In this document: positions 1-10,551 of the stretch, piece after piece
Layout: each line of letters starts with the position of its first letter
How positions within the stretch are numbered: position 1 is the stretch's first letter
Source of the DNA: an uncultured beta proteobacterium
GTDB taxonomy: Bacteria > Pseudomonadota > Gammaproteobacteria > Burkholderiales > Rhodocyclaceae
Assembly (NCBI GenBank): GCA_903917505.1
Contig: CAIXAY010000534.1
Span: forward strand, 1 to 10,551
DNA: 10,551 nt
Direction: 5' to 3'
The notes under the pieces: generated by a model
What the model was told of the DNA's origin: nothing
Seen by the model: the letters and a program-made list of their open reading frames with translations, nothing else
The model's database searches: none
Position numbers and translations under genes: made by a program

Positions 1-121
1 CGCGCGCGCGGCTGTCGATCAGCGCAATGGACGGCCCGTCGCGCAGGGCCAAAGCCAGCGCCATGCCAAGCGGGCCGGCGCCGACGATGGCGATGTCGAC
101 CTCTTCGGGAAATTCAATCAC
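1..121 (-). CDS. UbiH/VisC/COQ6-family FAD-dependent monooxygenase, N-terminus only
   Basis: Forty codons are present before the gene leaves the left edge. They open with a short lead and then a beta-strand plus glycine-rich loop (IAIVGAGPLGMALALAL), the GxGxxG Rossmann motif that binds the ADP part of FAD, followed by the second strand ending in Asp (IALIDSR), as expected for the ribose-binding acid. This is the N-terminus of ubiquinone-biosynthesis ring hydroxylases (UbiH/UbiI/UbiF/UbiM group); the pepP-ubiH neighbourhood known from E. coli supports this over other flavoproteins. Which ring position it hydroxylates cannot be judged from this fragment. I chose the GTG at 119-121 as start because it overlaps the pepP stop codon (118-120), suggesting translational coupling; a purine-rich GAAGAAG inside the pepP end could serve as ribosome site. 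No ATG exists between the pepP stop and the FAD motif in this frame. Confidence 0.75.
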   Translation of the reverse strand, partial: MIEFPEEVDIAIVGAGPLGMALALALRDGPSIALIDSRAR

Positions 122-1413
122 TTGCGCATGACTTCTTCGATTTCGGCGATCGTCTTCGGCGCCGTCGTGTAAACGTCGCAGCCGTCGGCGGTGACGAAGG
201 CGTCGTCCTCGATGCGGATGCCGATGCCCTGCAGCGCCTCGGGCACATCGGCGCCGGGGCGCAGGTAGAGCCCCGGTTCGACGGTCAGCGCCATGTCGGG
301 CTCGAGCGCCACCCAGGCCTCACCCGACTTGTACTCGCCGGCGTCATGCACGTCGAGGCCGAGCCAGTGCCCGGTGCGATGCATGTAGAAGGGCTTGTAG
401 GCCTCGCTGGCGATGTTGTCGTCAACGCTGCCGGCCAGCAGCTTGAGGTCGATCAGGCCTTGCACCAGGACGCGCAGCGCGGCGTCGTGGTAGGCGATGA
501 ACGGCACGCCCGGCTTGATGGCGTCGATCGCCGCGCTTTGCGCGGCGAGGACGATTTCATAGACGTCGCGCTGGGCGCCGCTGAACTTGCCGTTGACGGG
601 GAAGGTGCGGGTGATGTCGGAAGCATAACCTTCGAGTTCGCAGCCGGCGTCGATCAGCACCAGCGCATGCTCGCCGAGCGGCTTGTCGTTTTCGATATAG
701 TGCAGCACGCAGGCGTTGTGCCCGCCGGCGACGATCGGCGAATAGGCGTGGCCGCCGGCGCCGCGCTTGCGGAATTCGTGGGAGAGTTCGGCTTCGAGTT
801 CATATTCGGCCATGCCCGGGCGGCAGGCGTGCATGGCGCGCGCGTGTCCGGCCGAGGCGATTTCCGCGGCGCGGCGCATGATCGCCATTTCCTGTGCGTC
901 CTTGCGCTGGCGCATCGGGTCGAGTGCCGCATGCAGGTCGCGAATTTCCGCCGGCGCCCGCTTGCCGGCACGCGCTTGCGCGCGCACCGCGTTCAGAGCG
1001 CCGACGATTTTCGCATCCCAGGCCGCGTCGCTACCCAGCGCGTGCCACAGGGCGCTGCGGTCGGCGATCAGCCCGGGCAGCTTCTCGTCGAATTCGGAAA
1101 AGGCATAGGCCTCGTCGAAACCGAAAGTCTCGCGCGCCGCCTGCGGGCCATGCCGGTAGCCATCCCAGACTTCGCGCTCGGCGTTCTTCTCGCGGCAGAA
1201 CAGGATGCTGCGCGGCGCCTTGCCGCCGACCAGGACGATGACCGCTTCCGGTTCGGGAAAGCCCGAGAGATACCAGAAGTAGCTGTCGAAGCGGAAGGGG
1301 TAATGCGAGTCGCGGTTGCGCACCTGCTCGGGTGCGGTCGGGATCACGGCCACGCCGTCGCCGATGACGGCGAGCAGGGCGCTGCGGCGCGTTGCGTAAG
1401 GTTCGTGCTTCAT
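118..1413 (-). CDS. pepP: Xaa-Pro aminopeptidase (aminopeptidase P, M24B)
   Basis: This 431-residue protein is a cytosolic dimetal peptidase that removes the N-terminal residue ahead of a proline. The first ~170 residues form the creatinase-like N-domain; the pita-bread catalytic domain follows. The metal ligands are all present: D255 and D266 (in [18 protein letters not shown]), H349 ([13 protein letters not shown]), E379 (LTVEPGLYL) and E402 (GIRIEDD). Their spacing tracks E. coli PepP (D260, D271, H354, E383, E406) within one residue, and length is close to the ~440 residues usual for the family. The ATG at 1411-1413 overlaps the murU stop in an ATGA arrangement, so it is translated in a chain after murU. 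Its own stop overlaps the GTG start of the UbiH-family gene. Nothing looks damaged. Confidence 0.95.
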
Positions 1414-2102
1414 GCGTGCGGGCTCACTTGAGTGTTCAGTTCACGGTCGAGTTCGGCGAGGCGTTCGGGCGTTCCTACGTCGACCCATCGCGCGTCATGA
1501 CGTTCCCCGCTGACCCTGCCTTGCGCGATGGCCGCGTCGAGCAGCGGGCGCATCTTCATGACCGCACCGCTCGGCACGCCGGCGAAGAAGCGCGGCGAAA
1601 AAACGCCGATGCCGGCGTAGGTCAGCGTCGGGCCGGCGGCGGTGCCGGCGTATCTGGCCGTCTCGCCGTCGAGGCAGAAGTCGCCGCCCGCATGTTCGCG
1701 CGGATTGGCGACCAGGACGAGATGCGCATGGCGCGCGGCAAGTGCGCGTGCGCGGCGAAAATCCCAGTCGCACCAGATGTCGCCATTGACCACGAGAAAG
1801 GCCTCGTCGCCAAGCAGCGGCAAAGCCCTGGCGATGCCGCCGGCGGTTTCCAGCGCGCCCGGCGGCTCGGGCGAATAGCGGATGGCGAGACCGAAGCGTC
1901 GGCCGTCGCCGAGCGCGGCTTCGATCTTCTCGCCAAGATGCGCGTGATTGATGACGACGTCCTTGAAGCCGGCGGCGGCGAGGCGCTCCAGATGCCAGAC
2001 GATGAGCGGCTTGCCGCCGGCCGGCAGCAGCGGCTTGGGCAGCGTGTCGGTGAGCGGCCGCAGCCGTTCGCCGCGCCCGGCGGCGAGAATCATCGCTTTC
2101 AT
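1410..2102 (-). CDS. murU: N-acetylmuramate-1-phosphate uridylyltransferase, MurU-type
   Basis: This 230-residue nucleotidyltransferase begins with the sugar-nucleotide signature [20 protein letters not shown] (residues 5-24). LETAGG (84-89) and VVNGDIW (104-110, D108 as probable Mg ligand) follow, with [10 protein letters not shown] near the C-terminus. In Pseudomonas putida, MurU converts MurNAc-alpha-1-phosphate plus UTP to UDP-MurNAc, letting recycled muramic acid bypass the fosfomycin-sensitive MurA step. The pairing with amgK upstream on the same strand, beside divergent lptD, supports MurU over a generic glucose- or mannose-1-phosphate transferase. I placed the start at 2102 because GGAG (plus-strand CTCC, 2109-2112) lies six bases upstream. 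The frame stays open to 2192, but that extension is encoded by a dispersed repeat and is not family-like. The stop overlaps the pepP start by four bases. Confidence 0.88.
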
Positions 2103-2251: not shown

Positions 2252-3295
2252 TTAAAAAGTGTATCCGACATCAGCCGGTCGTTGCTCAAGCTGGTCGAGC
2301 AGGCGCGCCAGCGGCCGCAGGTCGAGGTAGCGCTCGCAGGTGCGGCGCAGGTAGGCGAGCACGCGTGGCATGTCATTCACGTAGCCGGCCTTGCCGTCGC
2401 GGTGGCAGAGGCGGGCGAAAATGCCGAGCACCTTGATCTGGCGCTGCGCACCCATCCATTCGTAATCGCAGTAGAAATCGTCGAAATCGGGGCGCACCGG
2501 CAAGCCGGCGGCGCGCGCCTGTTCCCAGTAGCGTATGACATAGTCAAGTTCCTCGGTCTCTTCCCAATTGATGTAGGCATCGCGGTAGAGCGAAACGAGA
2601 TCGTAGGTGATCGGGCCATAGACCGCGTCCTGGAAGTCGATGATGCCGGGATTGGCCGGATAGGTGACCGAATCGGCCTCGCCGCAGACCATCAGGTTAC
2701 GCGAATGGTAATCGCGGTGCACGAACACTTTGGCCTGCGCCAGGTTGTTGGCAAGAATCTTCTCGAATACGGTGCGCATCGTCGCGCGCTGCACCTCGCT
2801 CAGCGTGACGCCGAGGTGGCGGGCGACGTACCACTCGGGAAACAGGTCGAGCTCGCGCGCCAGCAGGGTGCGGTCGTAGTCGGGCAGGATGCCGGCCTGG
2901 CTGGCGCGCTGGATGTCGACCAGCGCGGAGTTGGCCTGGCGGTAGAGGCGGGGGGCGGTGGCGGCGTCGAGGACATCGAGATACATGGTCTTGCCGAGGT
3001 CGGAAAGCAGCAGGAATCCCTGCGCCAGATCGTGGCCGTACACTGCCGGCACATGCACGCCGGCGGCGCGGAACAGGCTGGCGACCTTGAGAAACGGGCG
3101 GCAGTCCTCGTGCTCGGGCGGCGCGTCCATGACGATGCGCGTGCTCGCATCGGGCAGCGTGACGCGAAAGTAGCGGCGGAAACTGGCGTCGGCCGATGCC
3201 GGTTCGAGCGCGAACGCTTGCGCGCGATGGCGCTCCGGGGAATCGCATGCGAGGTGACTGCTCAGCCAGTCACGCAACAGGACGGTACGCGGCAT
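2252..3295 (-). CDS. amgK: Anomeric MurNAc/GlcNAc kinase, AmgK-type
   Basis: This 347-residue cytosolic protein has the aminoglycoside-phosphotransferase kinase fold. The N-lobe carries a SFRRYFRV strand (38-45) and IVMDAPPE, the usual nucleotide-side segment. The catalytic loop is [12 protein letters not shown] (192-203), with D195 as probable base and N200 as metal ligand. [19 protein letters not shown] (218-236) supplies the metal-binding Asp, D220, and the following helix seen in sugar kinases of this family. AmgK phosphorylates the anomeric carbon of MurNAc or GlcNAc with ATP, feeding MurU, which is the next gene. The location, divergent from lptD and followed by murU, matches the known Pseudomonas arrangement. 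The start at 3295 has a strong AGGAG (plus-strand 3303-3307). A general APH-family phosphotransferase is the alternative, but context makes AmgK the better name. Confidence 0.88.
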
Positions 3296-3302
3296 GCCGC
3301 TT

Positions 3303-3307
3303 CTCCT
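3303..3307 (-). promoter_or_regulatory. Strong ribosome binding site of amgK
   Basis: The minus strand reads TTAGGAGAAGCGGC directly before the amgK ATG, giving an AGGAG at good spacing. This contrasts with the divergent lptD gene, which has no recognisable counterpart. Confidence 0.7.
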
Positions 3308-3317
3308 AAGGCTATGG

Positions 3318-3341
3318 TGCTAAAATGCAACGATTTTACCA
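3318..3341. promoter_or_regulatory. Facing extended -10 elements in the amgK/lptD divergent region
   Basis: On the plus strand, TGCTAAAAT (3318-3326) fits a TGn-TATAAT extended -10 pointing at lptD. On the minus strand, TGGTAAAAT (3341-3333) fits the same pattern pointing at amgK. The two arms match in 8 of 9 positions around a 6-base spacer, making an imperfect 24-bp palindrome. Predicted starts near 3333 (plus) and 3326 (minus) would leave leaders of about 75 bases for lptD and about 31 for amgK. No good -35 hexamer stands at 17 bases from either, which is acceptable for extended -10 promoters. The palindrome could instead be a regulator's operator. The rest of 3296-3407 shows no gene. Confidence 0.4.
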
Positions 3342-3407
3342 CTCGCCCCGCTGGCCCCTGCGTCATCGGAAATAAGCGGTCGTGCTGTTTTTTACTGATC
3401 TTTCCGA

Positions 3408-6400
3408 ATGATTTTTTCTGCTCGGCGCAAGCACTACGCGCTGCTCTATTGCTGCGGTTTGGTCAGCGCTGTCGCCGGCACTTATGCAAGCGACGTATTG
3501 GCGCAGGCGCCTGCGCCGCTGCGCGTCGATCCCGTGCTGCTCGGCCTGCCGCCGCTCAAGCCGGCCGAAGCGCCCGCGCCTGCCGCGGCGGCGCCAGCAC
3601 CCGCGGCAGCAGCGAAGGAAGCGCCGGGCGTCGAGGTGAAATCGATCGAGGCTCCCGTCGTCGAGTCGCGTCCGGTCGACGCTGCGCCGGTCAGCCAGCC
3701 AGCCAAAGCCGGCAGCACAGCGTCCGGCATTACGGCGCCACCGCCCGAGCCGACGCCGGCGGCAGCGATTACACCGCCCGCATCGGCGCCGCAGCTGCCC
3801 ACACCACCGATACAGCCGACTACGCCAACAGCGCCAACAGCACCAACAGCACCCGTGCCGGCGGCTGCCGCAAATCCGGCGTCGGTTCCGGCGGCCGCTA
3901 CGCCGCCTGCACCGGCGCGCCAGGCGGCGCCAGCGTCAGCGGTTGGCCCGGCAACTGCGGTGCCGGCGAAAGCATCGGCCCAGCCTGCGGCGCCCGTTGC
4001 TCCCGTACCCACAGCCAGTGCTTCGGCCGGCAACGTCTCGTCATTGGCACCGCTGCGTGTCGATCCGGCCCTGCTCGGCCTGCCGCCGCCGACGGTGAGT
4101 GCGAGCGCCACGTCGGTTGCCGGTAGTCGTCCGGCGCAAGCCGGAACGCCAGCCGGCGCGCCCGCGCCTGGCGCACCGGTGGTGCTGGCTGCGGCAAGTA
4201 CCGGCAGTCCGGCCGCGGCCGGCAAGTCTTGGTACCGGTATGTCTGGGATCCGCTGGCCGACGCGTACAAATTTGGTACTTACGAGTTCTATCTGCCGCT
4301 CGTGACCTATCACCTGCGCAGCGCCTACACCTCCGAACAGATCGCCGACTATCAGGAACGCCCGCCGGGTTTCGGCGTCGGCAAGGGTTATTACAACGAG
4401 CGCGGAAACTGGGAGGGCATTTATGCCATGGGTTTCCAGGATTCGCATTTCAAGCCTTCGTATATCGCCGGTTACGGCTGGAAGGCCATGTGGCGTCCGG
4501 CCGACGATGTGCGTGTCGGCCTCGGCTACACCGCCGGCCTGATGACGCGCGCCGACATCGGGCACTACGTACCCTTCCCGGTCATTCTGCCAATGGCATC
4601 GCTGGCCTACAAGAATCTTAGCTTGGAATCGACCTATGTCCCGGGCGGCGCCGGTTTTGGCAATATCTTTTTCATCTGGGCAAAGTGGGAGATCGGCAAG
4701 ACCGGCGAAGCGATCGGCATGCCGAAGCCGCCGGCACCGCCACCTCCCGTGCCGACACAGATGGCCAACATCGCGTTCGGCGCCGCCACGCCGCTGGCGC
4801 AGCAGCGGGTGCCTTACGGCCCCGCGCTTGAGCCGGGAGCACGCCTGGCGACGGCGACGGAAACCCTGCCGCCGCAAGTTCCGGCGACCGGTCCGCGCGA
4901 CGAGGAGGAGGTGCCCGATGCGCTGCCGGCGCTGGCCTTGCGCGCGTCGAAAAGCATGGAGCCGCCACCCAAGGACAAGACCACGCCGCAACCCGTATTC
5001 CTGCGCGCGCAGCGCATGGCCGGCGAGGTCGACCGCGAATTCATCGCCGAGGGCGACGCCGAACTGCGCAAGATCGGCACCGTGCTCAATTCCGAGCGGC
5101 TGACCTACTGGCCGATCGACGATGAAGTCGAGGCCGAGGGCAATGTGCATCTGGCACAGGGCGGGGACTTGATCACCGGGCCGAAGATGCGCCTCAGGCT
5201 GGAAGACGAGATCGGCTACTTCGAGCAGCCGGCGTACACGCTCAAGCGGCAGCCGCAGGCCGGGAGCAAGGCCGCGGCGGACAAGGCTTTCGCCGAGAGC
5301 CCGGCGGGGCAGATCGGCGACAAGGACTGGTTCAACTCGGGCTTTGCCACGCCGCGCGTGCTCAACATCAAACCGGGTCAAACGACGTTCAACGAGACAC
5401 CCAAGCGCCACACGGCGACCGAAGGACGCGGCGAAGCCGACCGCATCGATTTCGAGGGGCAGAACCAGGTCAGGCTGACCAACGCCACCTATACCACCTG
5501 TTCGCCGGGCAACGATGACTGGTATGCCAAGGCCGGCGATCTCAAGCTCGACTACGACCGCGGGGTCGGCGAGGGCAAGGACGGAACGATCTATTTCAAG
5601 GATGTTCCGATACTCTATTCGCCGTGGCTTTCCTTCTCGCTCAATAATGAGCGCAAATCGGGCTTCCTGGCGCCAAGCCTTGGCACCAACAGCGTCAACG
5701 GCATTGAAATGAGACAGCCCTATTACTGGAATATCGCGCCGAACATGGACGCGACGATCGCACCGCGAGAAATGAGCAAGCGTGGCGTCGAAGTGGGCAG
5801 CGAGTTCCGCTATCTCAATACGGCCTATGGCGGCGTTTATCGCGGCGTGGCAGCGGCCGAGGTGCTGCCGAACGACAACCTGCGCGACGGCGACAAGCGC
5901 TACGCGCTCGCCTTGCAGCACCTGCAGACGACAGCCAGCGGCTTTAGCGGCCTGATCAATTACAACAAGGTTTCGGACGACAATTACTTCACCGATCTGT
6001 CGAGCAACATAACGCAGACCTCGCAGGTCAACCTGACGCAACAGGCGCTGTTGAGCTATGGCGCCGGCTGGTGGGATGCCACTGTCAATGTGCTGAGCTA
6101 TCAGACGCTGCAGCCGGATCCGACGGTAACCAACCTGAACCCGTACCGGACCTTGCCGCAGATCACCGTCAATGCGCGCAAGTACGACCTGGCCATGACC
6201 GATGCCGTCTTCATGGGCCAGTACACCAATTTCACCAAGCCGGATCAGATCATCAGCGGCGTCAAGGTCAGCAATCCAGACGGCCAACGAACCGTGCTTT
6301 ACCCGCAGGTCTCGCTGCCCCACGTGACGCCCGGCTGGTACGTCACGCCGAAGCTCGGCGTCAATGTCCGCAACTATTCGCTGACCGGCCAGACGCTCGG

Positions 6401-7337
6401 GACGCCGGCTTCGCAAAACATCACGCTGCCGGTCGCCAGCCTCGATTCCGGAATGACCTTCGAGCGCTCGAGCAACTGGTTCGGCAAGGACTACACGCAG
6501 ACGCTCGAGCCACGCCTCTATTACCTGAATATCCCGTACAAGAACCAGGACCAGATCCCGATTTTCGACACCGCTGCCGCGGATTTCAACTTTGCCCAGA
6601 TTTTCTCCGAGAACCAATACACCGGCTGGGATCGAATCAGCAACGCCAACCAGCTGACCGCGGCGGCGACCACTCGCCTGCTCGAGCCTTCGAGCGGCAA
6701 CGAAATCATGCGCGCAATGCTCGGGGAGCGTTTCTATTTCACCCGCAACAAGGTCTTGCTGCCGAATACCTTGACGACGACCGATACCCAGAAGTGGGAA
6801 AAATCGGACGCGCTCGCCGCCTTCAGCGGGCAGATATTGCCCAGGATTTATGCCGATGTCGCGCTGGAATACAATCTCGCCGATCGGCAGCTCAAGCGTT
6901 ATTCCGTCGGGACGCGTTTCGAGCCCGAACCGGGCAAGGTGCTGAACGCCGCCTATCGCTACAACCGCGATCCGACGACACCGGTCGACCAGGTCGATGT
7001 CTCCGGACAGTGGCCGATTGCCGGGCGCTGGCATGCCGTCGGCCGCGTGAATTATTCGTTCAAGGACGACACTGCCAATGTATCGATCGGTTCCACCGGC
7101 GGCCGCATGATCGAGTCCATTGCCGGCCTCGAGTACAACGGCGGCTGCTGGGTGGTGCGCGGCGTGGTGCGGCGCACGGCGCTTACCCAGGATACGGCTT
7201 CGACGGCGTTCTTCATCCAGCTTGAGCTCAATGATTTCTCGAGCATCGGCACCAATCCGCTTAATATTCTCAAGCGAAATATTCAGGGCTACAGCCCGAT
7301 CAATCAGCCGACTGCCGACCCGGTGTTTGGCGATTAG
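3408..7337 (+). CDS. lptD: LPS-assembly protein LptD with N-terminal PagP domain fusion
   Basis: The protein has 1309 residues against ~784 in E. coli. Order: signal peptide 1-32 (basic ARRKH, hydrophobic core, likely cleavage after VLA); motif LRVDPVLLGLPP at 38-49; a Pro/Ala/Thr-rich stretch; a second copy of the motif at 216-227; a PagP lipid A palmitoyltransferase domain at ~273-430; a Pro-rich linker at ~431-527; then the LptD jellyroll from ~529 and the 26-strand barrel to the end. LptD family marks include YYWNIAPNMDATI (772-784), EFRYL and the C-terminal LELNDFSSIGTNPL. LptD receives LPS from the periplasmic Lpt bridge and inserts it in the outer leaflet. Mature cysteines are only C698 and C1247. 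ATG 3408 is the first start after an in-frame stop at 3396 and lacks a clear Shine-Dalgarno. No second signal peptide precedes the jellyroll, so LptD export depends on the fused N-terminus. Confidence 0.95.
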   Translation: MIFSARRKHYALLYCCGLVSAVAGTYASDVLAQAPAPLRVDPVLLGLPPLKPAEAPAPAAAAPAPAAAAKEAPGVEVKSIEAPVVESRPVDAAPVSQPAKAGSTASGITAPPPEPTPAAAITPPASAPQLPTPPIQPTTPTAPTAPTAPVPAAAANPASVPAAATPPAPARQAAPASAVGPATAVPAKASAQPAAPVAPVPTASASAGNVSSLAPLRVDPALLGLPPPTVSASATSVAGSRPAQAGTPAGAPAPGAPVVLAAASTGSPAAAGKSWYRYVWDPLADAYKFGTYEFYLPLVTYHLRSAYTSEQIADYQERPPGFGVGKGYYNERGNWEGIYAMGFQDSHFKPSYIAGYGWKAMWRPADDVRVGLGYTAGLMTRADIGHYVPFPVILPMASLAYKNLSLESTYVPGGAGFGNIFFIWAKWEIGKTGEAIGMPKPPAPPPPVPTQMANIAFGAATPLAQQRVPYGPALEPGARLATATETLPPQVPATGPRDEEEVPDALPALALRASKSMEPPPKDKTTPQPVFLRAQRMAGEVDREFIAEGDAELRKIGTVLNSERLTYWPIDDEVEAEGNVHLAQGGDLITGPKMRLRLEDEIGYFEQPAYTLKRQPQAGSKAAADKAFAESPAGQIGDKDWFNSGFATPRVLNIKPGQTTFNETPKRHTATEGRGEADRIDFEGQNQVRLTNATYTTCSPGNDDWYAKAGDLKLDYDRGVGEGKDGTIYFKDVPILYSPWLSFSLNNERKSGFLAPSLGTNSVNGIEMRQPYYWNIAPNMDATIAPREMSKRGVEVGSEFRYLNTAYGGVYRGVAAAEVLPNDNLRDGDKRYALALQHLQTTASGFSGLINYNKVSDDNYFTDLSSNITQTSQVNLTQQALLSYGAGWWDATVNVLSYQTLQPDPTVTNLNPYRTLPQITVNARKYDLAMTDAVFMGQYTNFTKPDQIISGVKVSNPDGQRTVLYPQVSLPHVTPGWYVTPKLGVNVRNYSLTGQTLGTPASQNITLPVASLDSGMTFERSSNWFGKDYTQTLEPRLYYLNIPYKNQDQIPIFDTAAADFNFAQIFSENQYTGWDRISNANQLTAAATTRLLEPSSGNEIMRAMLGERFYFTRNKVLLPNTLTTTDTQKWEKSDALAAFSGQILPRIYADVALEYNLADRQLKRYSVGTRFEPEPGKVLNAAYRYNRDPTTPVDQVDVSGQWPIAGRWHAVGRVNYSFKDDTANVSIGSTGGRMIESIAGLEYNGGCWVVRGVVRRTALTQDTASTAFFIQLELNDFSSIGTNPLNILKRNIQGYSPINQPTADPVFGD
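3519..3554 (+). repeat. LptD N-terminal 12-residue motif, copy 1
   Basis: Residues 38-49 read LRVDPVLLGLPP, five residues after the predicted signal cleavage site. The motif recurs at 216-227 with one substitution (V to A). It is hydrophobic and ordered-looking inside otherwise low-complexity sequence, so it may be a short binding motif. Confidence 0.8.
3825..3851 (+). repeat. 9-bp tandem repeat in the LptD linker
   Basis: CCAACAGCG, CCAACAGCA, CCAACAGCA stand head to tail and encode Pro-Thr-Ala three times. The period is a multiple of three, so copy-number changes by slippage would keep the frame and only change linker length. Confidence 0.75.
4053..4088 (+). repeat. LptD N-terminal 12-residue motif, copy 2
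   Basis: Residues 216-227 read LRVDPALLGLPP, about 45 residues before the PagP domain. Eleven of 12 residues equal copy 1, and the DNA differs mostly at third positions, so the protein sequence appears to have been held by selection after an older duplication. Confidence 0.8.
4224..4697 (+). other. PagP domain (lipid A palmitoyltransferase) inside LptD
   Basis: Residues 273-430 match mature E. coli PagP (161 residues) along its whole length as I recall that sequence. They start with an amphipathic segment (WYRYVWDPLADAYKF) and run through YLPLVTYH, DYQERPPGFG, GNWEGIYAMGFQDS, IAGYGW, GLGYTAG, VPFPVILPMAS and TYVPG. The catalytic residues H33, D76 and S77 correspond to H302, D345 and S346, with identical spacing. 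G88, the floor of the acyl-chain ruler, corresponds to G357. The lateral-gate prolines P28, P50, P127 and P144 correspond to P297, P319, P395 and P412. PagP is an 8-stranded outer-membrane barrel that moves palmitate from a phospholipid to lipid A. Both its ends face the periplasm, which suits a fusion to the periplasmic jellyroll of LptD. Confidence 0.9.
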
Positions 7338-7349: not shown

Positions 7350-8660
7350 ATGAACTCAGTGTATCGCGCGTTGTTCCTCTTGCTCTGCTGCGTCGGGACG
7401 GCCTGTGCGCAAACGCCGCGCAGCCAGGGCCGCGAGCCGCGGCCCGCCGATCGTATCGTCGCCATCGTCAATGACGAAGTGATCACCTTGGTCGAATTGC
7501 GCGCGCGTCTCGCCTTGGCGCTCAACCAGCTGCAGCGGCAGGGCACCGCCTTGCCGGCGCGCGATGTTCTCGAACGCCAGATGCTCGAACGCCTGATCAT
7601 GGACAAGATCCAGTTGCAGTTCGCCAAGGAAAATGGCTTGCGTATCGATGATGCGCAGTTCGAACAGACGCTGCAGCGCGTCGCCGGCAACAACAAGATG
7701 ACGATCGCGCAGTTTCGCGAGGCGCTCAAGAAAGACGGGATCGAATTTGCCAAATTCCGCGAGGACATCCGCGAAGAAATGACGATCGCGCGCGTGCGCG
7801 AACGCGAGGTGGAAAACAAGATCGTCATTTCCGAAGGCGAGATCGACAACTATTTGAGCGGCGACGTTGCCAAGGGGCCTGCCGATGAAGAGTACGAGGT
7901 CGCGCACATTCTCCTGCGCTCGCCGGAGTCGGCGAGTCCCGAGCAGATTCAGAACCTCAAGGCCAAGGCCGAACAGGTATACGATCGCCTCGGCAAGGGC
8001 GAGGATTTCTCGAAGCTGGCGGCGGCTTATTCCGATGCGCCAGATGGCCTGCAGGGCGGGAGCCTTGGCATGCGTCCGCTCGATCGCCTGCCGGCCCTGT
8101 ATGCCGATGCGGTCGCCAAGCTGAAAGCCGGCGATCTGGCGCCGATTCTGCGCAGCGCCAACGGCTATCACATTGTCAAGCTCGTCGCCAGGCGCGGCGG
8201 CGGCGCGCTGCCGGCCGTTCAGCAAACGCATGTCCGGCATATCCTGATCAAGGTCAACGAGGTGGTCTCCGAGGCGGATGCCAAGCACAAACTCGCCGAT
8301 CTCTACGACCGGATCAAAAACGGGGCGAGCTTTGCCGAATTGGCCAAGCTGTTTTCTCAGGATGGCGCCGCGTCGAAGGGAGGCGATCTCGGCTGGATTT
8401 ATCCCGGCGATACGGTACCCGAATTCGAAAGAGCAATGAACGCGCTGAAGCCCGGCGAAGTCAGCGAGCCGGTGCAGTCGCCGTTCGGCTTCCATTTGAT
8501 CGAAGTGCTCGAGCGGCGGGTGCAGGACGTGTCGGCCGAACGGCAGCGTGCGGCCGCCCGCCAGGTCTTGCGCGAGCGCAAGATGGACGAGGCCTACCAG
8601 GACTGGCTGCGGCAGGCGCGCGACAGCGCCTATGTCGAGATCCGTCTTGACGAACGCTGA
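7350..8660 (+). CDS. surA: Periplasmic chaperone / peptidyl-prolyl isomerase SurA
   Basis: This 436-residue protein guides unfolded outer-membrane proteins, including LptD, to the BAM complex. A signal peptide covers residues 1-20 (hydrophobic LFLLLCCVG, cleavage after ACA). The N-terminal chaperone domain starts with DRIVAIVNDEVITLVEL and runs to about 178. Two parvulin domains follow: the first at ~181-279 (EYEVAHILLRSPE, GGSLGMRPLDRLP, NGYHIVKLV), the second at ~294-390 (HVRHILIKVNE, GGDLGWIYPGDTVPEF, PFGFHLIEVLERR). A C-terminal helix (MDEAYQDWLRQARDSAYVEI) packs back on the N-domain in the family. Length is close to E. coli SurA (428). It begins 12 bases after lptD and ends three bases before pdxA, as in the conserved lptD-surA-pdxA order. 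The chaperone of this genome must handle an unusual client carrying two barrels. Confidence 0.95.
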   Translation: MNSVYRALFLLLCCVGTACAQTPRSQGREPRPADRIVAIVNDEVITLVELRARLALALNQLQRQGTALPARDVLERQMLERLIMDKIQLQFAKENGLRIDDAQFEQTLQRVAGNNKMTIAQFREALKKDGIEFAKFREDIREEMTIARVREREVENKIVISEGEIDNYLSGDVAKGPADEEYEVAHILLRSPESASPEQIQNLKAKAEQVYDRLGKGEDFSKLAAAYSDAPDGLQGGSLGMRPLDRLPALYADAVAKLKAGDLAPILRSANGYHIVKLVARRGGGALPAVQQTHVRHILIKVNEVVSEADAKHKLADLYDRIKNGASFAELAKLFSQDGAASKGGDLGWIYPGDTVPEFERAMNALKPGEVSEPVQSPFGFHLIEVLERRVQDVSAERQRAAARQVLRERKMDEAYQDWLRQARDSAYVEIRLDER

Positions 8661-8663
8661 GCC

Positions 8664-9680
8664 ATGCTGAAGCGGCCCGTCATCGCCGTCACTTCGGGTG
8701 AGCCGGCCGGTGTGGGTCCGGACATCTGCCTGCGCTTGAGCGAACGCGCCGCGCAGGGCTTGCCGGCGCATCTTGTTGTTCTCGGCGATCGCGAGTTGAT
8801 GGCCGAGCGGGCGCAAGCCCTCGGCGATTGCGCGACGTCGAAGGGCGCGCGACCGGTGCTGCGCGACTGGACCCCCGGTCTCCTGCCGGCCGCCGGCAGC
8901 CTCGATATTCTGCACATCCCGCTGGCCGTTGCCGCGCATCCCGGTCGGCTTGACCCGGCCAATTCGCCGTATGTGCTGCAGCTGCTCGACCGGGCGATGG
9001 CCGGTTGCCTTTCCGGAGAATTCGCCGCAATGGTCACGGCGCCGGTGCATAAGGGCGTCATCAATGCGGCCGGCACGCCCTTCACCGGACACACCGAGTA
9101 CCTGGCCGAAAAGACCGCGGCGCCGCACGTCGTGATGATGCTTGCCGGCGGCGGTCTCAGGGTAGCGCTGGTGAGCACGCACCTGCGCCTGCAGGATGTT
9201 CCCGGCGCCGTGACGCGGGACGCGCTTGAGAAGTCCTTGCGCGTCCTGCATGCCGAACTGCGCCGCAAGTATGGCATTGCGCAGCCTCGGATTCTGGTCG
9301 CCGGTCTCAATCCGCATGCCGGCGAGGGCGGTTATCTCGGGCGCGAGGAAATCGAGGTCATCACGCCGGTGCTCGAGCGCCTGCGCGCCGAGGGCATGGC
9401 GCTGATCGGCCCGCTGCCGGCCGATACGCTATTCACCCCGCGGCAACTGGCGCAGGGCGATTGCGTGCTGGCCATGTACCACGACCAGGGCCTGCCGACG
9501 CTCAAGTACGCGAGCTTCGGCCAGGGCATCAACGTGACCCTTGGATTGCCCATCATCCGCACTTCCGTCGACCACGGCACTGCGCTCGAGCTCGCCGGCA
9601 CCGGCCAAGCCGACCCGGGCAGCCTTTTCGTCGCCGTCGAGCAGGCGATCGAAATGGCCCAGCGGGTGGGTGGGGGATGA
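8664..9680 (+). CDS. pdxA: 4-hydroxythreonine-4-phosphate dehydrogenase
   Basis: This 338-residue cytosolic enzyme oxidises 4-phosphohydroxy-L-threonine with NAD in the DXP-dependent pathway to pyridoxal phosphate. Family motifs in order are TSGEPAGVGPDI near the start, TAPVHKGVINAAG, FTGHTEYLAE, VSTHL, GLNPHAGEGGYLGREE, GPLPADTLF, AMYHDQGLPTLKY and RTSVDHGTALELAGTG. The three metal-binding histidines are H173, H218 and H273, with the same 45- and 55-residue spacing as E. coli H166, H211 and H266. Length agrees with the family (329 in E. coli). The ATG lies three bases after the surA stop with no strong ribosome site, so translational coupling is likely. A dispersed repeat begins eight bases after its stop. 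Confidence 0.95.
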   Translation: MLKRPVIAVTSGEPAGVGPDICLRLSERAAQGLPAHLVVLGDRELMAERAQALGDCATSKGARPVLRDWTPGLLPAAGSLDILHIPLAVAAHPGRLDPANSPYVLQLLDRAMAGCLSGEFAAMVTAPVHKGVINAAGTPFTGHTEYLAEKTAAPHVVMMLAGGGLRVALVSTHLRLQDVPGAVTRDALEKSLRVLHAELRRKYGIAQPRILVAGLNPHAGEGGYLGREEIEVITPVLERLRAEGMALIGPLPADTLFTPRQLAQGDCVLAMYHDQGLPTLKYASFGQGINVTLGLPIIRTSVDHGTALELAGTGQADPGSLFVAVEQAIEMAQRVGGG

Positions 9681-9832: not shown

Positions 9833-10551
9833 ATGAGCCAACATATCGCGCGCAAGCGCTTCGGACAAAACTTCCTGATCGACCGGCAGGTGATCGCCGA
9901 CATCGTCGGCGCGCTGGCGCTAGCGCGCGGCGATTGCGTCGTCGAGATCGGTCCCGGTCTCGGCGCCTTGACCGAACCGCTGTTGCGCCGGCTCGATCAT
10001 CTGCATGTCATCGAGATCGACCGCGATATCGTTGCCCGGTTGAAGCAGCGCTATGCTAATAGCATGCCAGGGCAACTGACGATACACGAAGGCGATGCGC
10101 TGGCCTTCGATTTCGCCGCGCTCGCCGCCGGCAGCCACCTGCGCATCGTCGGCAATCTGCCGTACAACATCTCGACGCCGCTGCTTTTCCATCTGGCCGA
10201 TTTTGCCGACCGCGTCGTCGACATGCACTTCATGCTGCAGAAGGAAGTTGTCGAACGCATGGTCGCCGCGCCCGGAACCGCGGATTTCGGCCGCCTGTCG
10301 GTCATGCTCCAATATCGTTTTGTCATGGACCGGCTGCTCGACGTGCCGCCCGAATCCTTTGCTCCGGCGCCCAAGGTCGACTCGGCGGTGGTGCGACTGA
10401 TTCCGCGTCCGCCGGCCGAGCTCGCGGCGCGCGACGAAATGCGCTTCGCGGCGCTGGTCTCGGCGGCCTTTGCGCAAAGGCGCAAGATGCTGCGCAACAA
10501 CCTCAAGGGGATTCTCGGCGACGCCGGCTTCGCCGGTCTCGGCATCGCGCC
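9833..10551 (+). CDS. rsmA: 16S rRNA (adenine1518/1519-N6)-dimethyltransferase, C-terminally cut by the window
   Basis: The open frame runs from ATG 9833 off the right edge, giving 239 codons of an expected ~270. The protein (KsgA) dimethylates two adjacent adenines in the 3' terminal helix of 16S rRNA during late 30S assembly. It opens with the typical [10 protein letters not shown] (residues 6-15), which fixes the start. Motif I for S-adenosylmethionine is [10 protein letters not shown] (38-47), VIEIDRD is near 59-65, EGDALAFDF follows, and the catalytic motif IV is GNLPYNIS (107-114). Downstream, [14 protein letters not shown] and [12 protein letters not shown] mark the C-terminal helical domain. 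An in-frame TAA at 9809-9811 rules out an upstream start. No clear Shine-Dalgarno is visible. The gene order pdxA-rsmA is conserved in proteobacteria, but here a repeat element separates them. Confidence 0.95.

Follow-up and report, generated by a model that had tools for sequence, protein, structure and literature searches.

A PagP acyltransferase domain within the LptD chain of Rhodocyclaceae: a possible tethered enzyme near the lipopolysaccharide exit gate

In relatives, PagP adds a fatty acid to lipopolysaccharide (LPS), and the LptD pore delivers LPS to the cell surface. The two are joined in one chain at the locus described here. Solan et al. (2021) reportedly surveyed multi-barrel outer-membrane proteins and their lineage-specific fusion. 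We found no description of a PagP-LptD chain in the searchable literature; that survey lies outside the search and may list the pair. Two-barrel outer-membrane proteins are represented by GfcD and YjbH (PMC11494523, PMC8592465, PMC9603273). Like these, the fused chain has two predicted barrels and periplasmic parts joining them, and its model would place it among the multi-barrel outer-membrane proteins. Unlike them, it unites an enzyme with a lipid translocon, and the two share a substrate.

Compared to PagP (PF07017; E. coli CrcA/PagP, 1thq, 3gp6), the fused domain is whole, with an N-terminal helix, 8 predicted strands, the His/Asp/Ser residues, and the gate prolines. However, it has no signal peptide of its own, lies inside another outer-membrane protein, and is variable at the ruler residue. 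The rest of the chain resembles LptD (PF03968 and PF04453; Neisseria gonorrhoeae 7omm) in its periplasmic N-domain and large barrel, in the gene order lptD-surA-pdxA-rsmA, and in having LptE elsewhere in related genomes; it differs in that a long N-terminal extension holds a second barrel and in that the mature chain has two cysteines only. The free PagP of Rhodocyclaceae, encoded between purH and purD, is of the same family and lies in the same chromosomal block as lptD in seven genomes, but it is a separate protein, with its own signal peptide as read by eye in locus L015, whereas the fused PagP is within the LptD chain. In public databases, such proteins are entered under one name or the other, PagP or LptD. 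With two names in the public records, counts of pagP and lptD and predictions of lipid A in this family can err.

The window, by which we mean the whole stretch of 10,551 nucleotides that was analysed (contig CAIXAY010000534.1, from an uncultured beta proteobacterium), has the gene context expected of LptD. Its features are listed here with the evidence for each.

118..1413, minus strand: pepP (Pfam, NCBIfam)
1410..2102, minus strand: murU (Pfam, NCBIfam)
2252..3295, minus strand: amgK, the divergent neighbour (Pfam, NCBIfam)
3408..7337, plus strand: fused PagP-LptD gene, 1309 aa (ORF list, Pfam, NCBIfam, database relatives)
3408..3509, plus strand: Sec-type signal peptide, about residues 1-34, ending LAQA, common to LptD-only relatives (hydrophobic 15-mers, aligned N-termini; cleavage site by eye)
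3510..4223, plus strand: Pro/Ala-rich extension, about residues 35-272, also in LptD-only relatives (comparison with relatives, composition)
3519..3542, plus strand: first LRVDPxLL motif, residues 38-45 (motif comparison among relatives)
4053..4076, plus strand: second LRVDPxLL motif, residues 216-223 (motif comparison among relatives)
4224..4697, plus strand: PagP domain, residues 273-430, N-terminal helix and 8 predicted strands (Pfam, NCBIfam, AlphaFold2, Foldseek, alignment)
4311..4313, plus strand: His302, aligned to E. coli PagP His33 (alignment)
4440..4445, plus strand: Asp345-Ser346, aligned to E. coli PagP Asp76-Ser77 (alignment)
4698..4982, plus strand: Pro-rich linker, residues 431-525, mostly predicted disordered (pLDDT, composition)
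5097..5558, plus strand: LptD_N periplasmic domain, Pfam 564-717 (Pfam, AlphaFold2)
5499..5501, plus strand: conserved Cys698 (alignment, composition)
5589..7334, plus strand: LptD outer-membrane barrel, about residues 728-1309, boundary approximate, Pfam LptD 830-1208 (Pfam, PDB, AlphaFold2, Foldseek)
7146-7148, plus strand: Cys1247 (alignment, composition)
7350..8660, plus strand: surA, 12 bases downstream of the fused gene (ORF list, Pfam, NCBIfam)
8664..9680, plus strand: pdxA (Pfam)
9833..10549, plus strand: rsmA, cut by the window end (Pfam)

The fused open reading frame begins with ATG and runs for 1309 codons with 0 internal stops; its start is plausible, as MxxxxRRKPLAL-type N-termini line up among relatives. 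The order of parts in the chain is signal peptide, Pro/Ala-rich extension, complete PagP, a linker that is about 95 residues long and largely disordered, and LptD. Pfam matched PagP at residues 287-426 with 174.7 bits (cut-off 24; profile 6-144 of 144), LptD_N at residues 564-717 with 23.6 bits (cut-off 20.4), and LptD at residues 830-1208 with 317.6 bits (cut-off 22.4). The NCBIfam PagP equivalog was over its cut-off (183.4 vs 155). Two NCBIfam LptD equivalogs were matched at E ~1e-103 but were under their cut-offs (346 vs 683 and 345 vs 944), and they may have been built for lineages other than that of the fused chain. Among the PDB matches were LptD chains of Neisseria, Pseudomonas, and enterobacteria, with E values as low as 1.3e-103 and Neisseria LptD 7omm as the best, and E. 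coli PagP at 3.1e-36. A sequence-only reading of this DNA had placed PagP and LptD in a single chain, and this is confirmed.

Strongly hydrophobic 15-mers starting within residues 1-530 were found at 10-25 only. No internal signal peptide was therefore seen in the chain, as the sequence-only reading had also noted. The sole hydrophobic segment preceding PagP is the N-terminal one, which is common to LptD-only relatives, and the window's PagP is, by its sequence, a PagP domain and not a stand-alone PagP. LptD-only relatives, P0080 and P0120 among them, also have the signal peptide and the Pro-rich extension with its LRVDPxLLG motifs. This contradicts the earlier claim that export of LptD had come to rely on the PagP-borne part. 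Because LptD-only relatives share the signal peptide and the extension, PagP was inserted, minus its own signal peptide, into an LptD extension that already existed. The mature chain contains no cysteines other than Cys698 and Cys1247; both are invariant in 16 aligned fusions, and they form a candidate single disulfide. A search of positions 3100-5600 for promoter- or terminator-like sites returned none, a result that says little.

We compared 91 rows of fused PagP; some proteins are counted twice among these rows, once as a genome locus and once as a database entry. H302, D345, and S346, which we take to be the counterparts of the E. coli catalytic residues His33, Asp76, and Ser77, were invariant in 91/91 rows. 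The residues aligned to E. coli prolines 28, 50, 127, and 144, presumably the crenel and embrasure gates of PagP, were likewise invariant in 91/91 rows. The floor of the PagP hydrocarbon ruler, which we assume to be Gly88 in E. coli, corresponds to residue 357 (window 4476-4478). This residue is Gly in the window chain and is G in 60, T in 8, S in 7, Q in 7, E in 5, A in 3, and I in 1 of the fused rows. The 31 of 91 fused PagPs without the ruler Gly may prefer shorter acyl chains, often not palmitate.

In 7 sequence pairs, dN/dS was 0.09-0.26 for PagP and 0.11-0.23 for the LptD barrel, and it was 0.28-0.44 for the N-terminal extension and 0.19-0.53 for the linker; these values are rough, with high synonymous change (0.6-2.2) and with stop-to-stop frames that add some untranslated codons to the extension of the loci. 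The values indicate that the PagP domain, like the LptD barrel, is under purifying selection. If the PagP part were a non-catalytic structural or assembly module, its position in an already variable extension with repeated short motifs would be fitting, but such a role would leave the invariance of the catalytic and gate residues in 91/91 rows without a reason, and we consider it very improbable. The fused PagP looks intact as an enzyme, and we infer that it is active. Rhodocyclus contains phosphatidylethanolamine and phosphatidylglycerol, and C16:0 makes up 33-36% of its fatty acids (PMC8954225). With C16:0 and these phospholipids present in Rhodocyclus, a donor of palmitate is probably available.

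Folding of the PagP part from a single sequence gave a pLDDT of 39, and an alignment-based model was used in its place. The AlphaFold2 model of residues 265-1309, made with an 80-row alignment, had a mean pLDDT of 74.8 and a pTM of 0.57. The PagP part formed a helix and eight strands, with pLDDT of 73-92 in blocks of ten; residues 441-505 and 510-514, in the linker, were below 50; and the linker was followed by LptD_N and then a long series of strands. When the model was searched with Foldseek, each part was matched to its own family, LptD with a best E of 1.5e-52 and PagP with 3gp6 (E 1.5e-10) and 1thq (E 2.0e-10), both at a target TM of 0.83. The model suggests that in the fused chain a flexible tether connects barrels of two families. 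The sequence-only reading had looked to structure prediction for two barrels and a lateral contact between them. Two barrels were predicted, but the model supports no defined contact between PagP and LptD, since the disordered linker fixes none and the relative placement of the parts is not confident at this pTM.

The linker, about 95 residues long, exposed, and mostly disordered, could also be a site of processing. In that scenario the chain would be a polyprotein from which a periplasmic protease, by cleaving the Pro-rich linker, releases separate PagP and LptD, and the fusion would be a delivery device only. However, the linker is partly conserved: 50 of 80 fused proteins carry an RVPYGP-type motif, which a somewhat less strict pattern also finds in 2 of 41 unfused proteins. 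No protease site was noticed, and the linker dN/dS of 0.19-0.53 also counts against processing. We regard a polyprotein as improbable, and we infer that the tethered chain persists uncleaved.

The region of residues 260-760 had 549 database matches. Among the best 120 of these 549 relatives, PagP and LptD were both present in 79 (P0023 and P0056 with the start of LptD only), and LptD was present without PagP in 41, two of which (P0090 and P0095) start downstream of PagP's place and may be cut. A search for long proteins with the PagP part (region 269-432) gave 63 matches among 214 candidates. By the precomputed Pfam column, PagP was present in 63/63 and LptD in 61/63; the two without annotated LptD, P0056 and P0023 ('partial'), are 721-722 aa long, and the start of LptD is visible in both. 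No PagP fused to another partner was found within the reach of these 63 matches.

A genome scan with the PagP-domain alignment gave 33 loci. PagP was in a single frame with LptD in 13 of them (L001-L007, L009-L013, and L019, with L005, L012, and L019 cut by contig ends) and in its own frame in 19. Locus L008, at a contig end, is a fragment belonging to the assembly that also contains L019 (Candidatus Propionivibrio aalborgensis); both contig ends hold part of PagP, and the two pieces are either one split gene or two copies. The fusion was found in 14 genome assemblies, including those of Rhodocyclus tenuis, R. gracilis, R. purpureus, and Propionivibrio dicarboxylicus (fused loci in strains 2761, DSM 110, DSM 168, and DSM 5885, respectively). 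The gene order amgK-murU-pepP / lptD-surA-pdxA was present in these 14 genomes as far as the contigs reach, and LptE was found in 14/14. An artefact of assembly or annotation would have to recur with the same junction and gene order in independent cultured strains and MAGs, which gives it almost no probability; the recurrence shows that the frame is not an assembly join.

Within the family of R. tenuis, PagP was over the cut-off in 43 of 297 genomes, and in 8 of those 43 the PagP match was inside an open frame of >900 aa and in line with the LptD match of that contig and strand. The genus group of one fusion genome (G001) comprises 28 genomes; PagP was found in 10 of these 28, all ten fused (one of them, G008, as two contig-end pieces), and was absent in 18, some of these genomes being incomplete; free pagP was found in 0/28. 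A second pagP was sought in 20 genomes, 13 of them with the fusion, and each of the 13 gave fusion matches only, those of G008 being the two pieces at contig ends. The separate pagP that the sequence-only reading proposed to look for was thus not seen in these relatives. Two weak PagP-like matches below the family cut-off, G131:C1:1469293-1469640 (19.8 bits) and G057:C1:5085-5435 (20.5 bits), are possibly other small barrels.

Free pagP was found in the order purH-pagP-purD in 18 of 19 distinct genomes with annotated free-pagP loci (L071-L083, L020, L023, L024, L026, L030, and L033), a count that leaves out the free-PagP loci L016, L017, L021, L022, L025, L028, L029, and L032. The exception was L079, in which neither purH nor purD was found. 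Loci L021 and L022 both belong to Janthinobacterium sp. palsa_998 (MAG), which has two free PagP loci on different contigs. In 7 of the 13 stretches L071-L083, namely L071-L077, most of which were picked for having lptD and pagP on one contig, the two genes lie in the same block with 8-11 kb between matches. The order there is lptD and then, in the opposite direction, amgK, murU, pepP, ubiH, dusB, purH, pagP, and purD. Stretches L081-L083 stop short of lptD. In L078 and L080, no pepP, murU, amgK, or lptD was found within ~15 kb upstream of dusB, and the neighbourhood from lptD to purD is therefore not universal.

Seven of the 14 fusion genomes were examined for this block, which runs in them from amgK to purD, and pagP was absent between purH and purD in 7/7. 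The purH and purD matches were 15-94 bases apart in six of these genomes and 1.9 kb apart in R. purpureus, and no pagP remnant was found in this 1.9-kb gap. The old slot is thus empty of pagP in these seven genomes. The gap in R. purpureus (L068:8391-10225) holds a two-gene pair that matches the PADLOC candidate defence system PDC-M38 (E 3.4e-139 and 1.3e-68). The sequence-only reading had also proposed that fusion makes PagP constitutive instead of stress-induced. This appears to have no basis, as free pagP lies mostly between purH and purD with no visible stress regulon.

In a tree of 84 PagP domains, 55 fused PagPs were on one side of a branch supported at 89/92, which falls below the star threshold, and found in 90% of bootstrap trees. 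This grouping suggests that the fused PagPs are of one origin. In the FastTree LptD tree (168 rows), the fused state changed 17 times, or 16 times without P0090 and P0095, and at least 11 changes were forced by starred branches with or without these two. A careful LptD tree of 40 rows had 7 changes, 6 of them forced. Given a single origin and many changes of state, most of the changes must be losses. P0082, which has LptD only, adjoins the fused P0038 at 100/100 and retains the linker that follows PagP in P0038; from its sequence, P0082 is a loss of PagP that left a linker scar, and thus at least one later loss has taken place. The genome G050 (L075) has a free pagP in the purH-purD slot, yet its LptD is among fused lineages (92/76, LptD tree), a position that copying and differential loss, or transfer, fits better than a simple move. 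P0076, P0078, and P0079 have a second LRVDP-type motif on the far side of PagP in a 16-row alignment, and a second, independent insertion in the group P0076-P0079 is conceivable; their PagPs nonetheless group with the other fused PagPs, and the number of motifs differs between proteins.

Since PagP is dispensable and the fused state was lost repeatedly, there is no essential coupling of PagP to LptD. The same dispensability would be expected if the fusion brought co-expression only, giving PagP the expression of lptD and one signal peptide while the tether had no effect and PagP worked anywhere in the outer membrane. The long disordered linker would suit this, and so would the active-site residues that fused and free PagPs share. 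However, the free pagP of relatives lies in a purine gene block, from which a gain in expression is not obvious; the single chain has been retained in many lineages, as in the 79 of the best 120 of 549 relatives; and none of the 28 genomes in the genus group of G001 has a free copy. We therefore think it unlikely, though a serious contender, that co-expression is the whole explanation.

The reading that we favour, and judge somewhat probable, is that the fusion is an active acyltransferase tethered near the LPS exit gate. It would have arisen, most likely in a single event, when a free pagP originally located between purH and purD was copied or moved, minus its signal peptide, into the disordered extension at the N-terminus of lptD in an ancestor within Rhodocyclaceae. 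The product would be a single precursor led by the signal peptide of LptD. PagP would fold into a barrel of 8 strands whose two ends should lie on the periplasmic side, and the linker would tether it to the periplasmic LptD_N of the LPS translocon. PagP should then move an acyl chain from outer-leaflet phospholipid to lipid A, with palmitate moved where the ruler residue is Gly, as in the window. The ratio of PagP to LptD would be fixed at 1:1, PagP would sit no more than a few nanometres from the gate that releases new LPS, and it would presumably act mainly on newly exported LPS.

A fuller version of this reading is that the tethered PagP acylates LPS leaving the lateral gate, clears stray phospholipid there, and couples LPS remodelling stoichiometrically to export; we put this forward tentatively, as a real possibility that we would not yet call probable. 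Removal of misplaced phospholipid had been part of the sequence-only reading as well. MlaA was found in 22/22 genomes tested (14 fused and 8 unfused), and removal by the fused PagP would therefore be an addition to Mla and not its replacement. The fusion would be a natural two-barrel chain that unites an enzyme with the pore that supplies its substrate. It makes testable both the modification of lipid A where LPS is inserted and the handling by BAM of two barrels in one chain, one of them with an internal last strand. Such tests are feasible in the cultured strains that carry the fusion (Rhodocyclus and Propionivibrio dicarboxylicus).

LRVDPxLLG is a short motif found behind the LptD signal peptide, and the Pro-rich extension often contains further copies of it, with or without the fusion. 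Akin forms, such as LVVSPDLLG, are present in LptDs elsewhere in the family. LRVDPxLLG is perhaps a docking motif.
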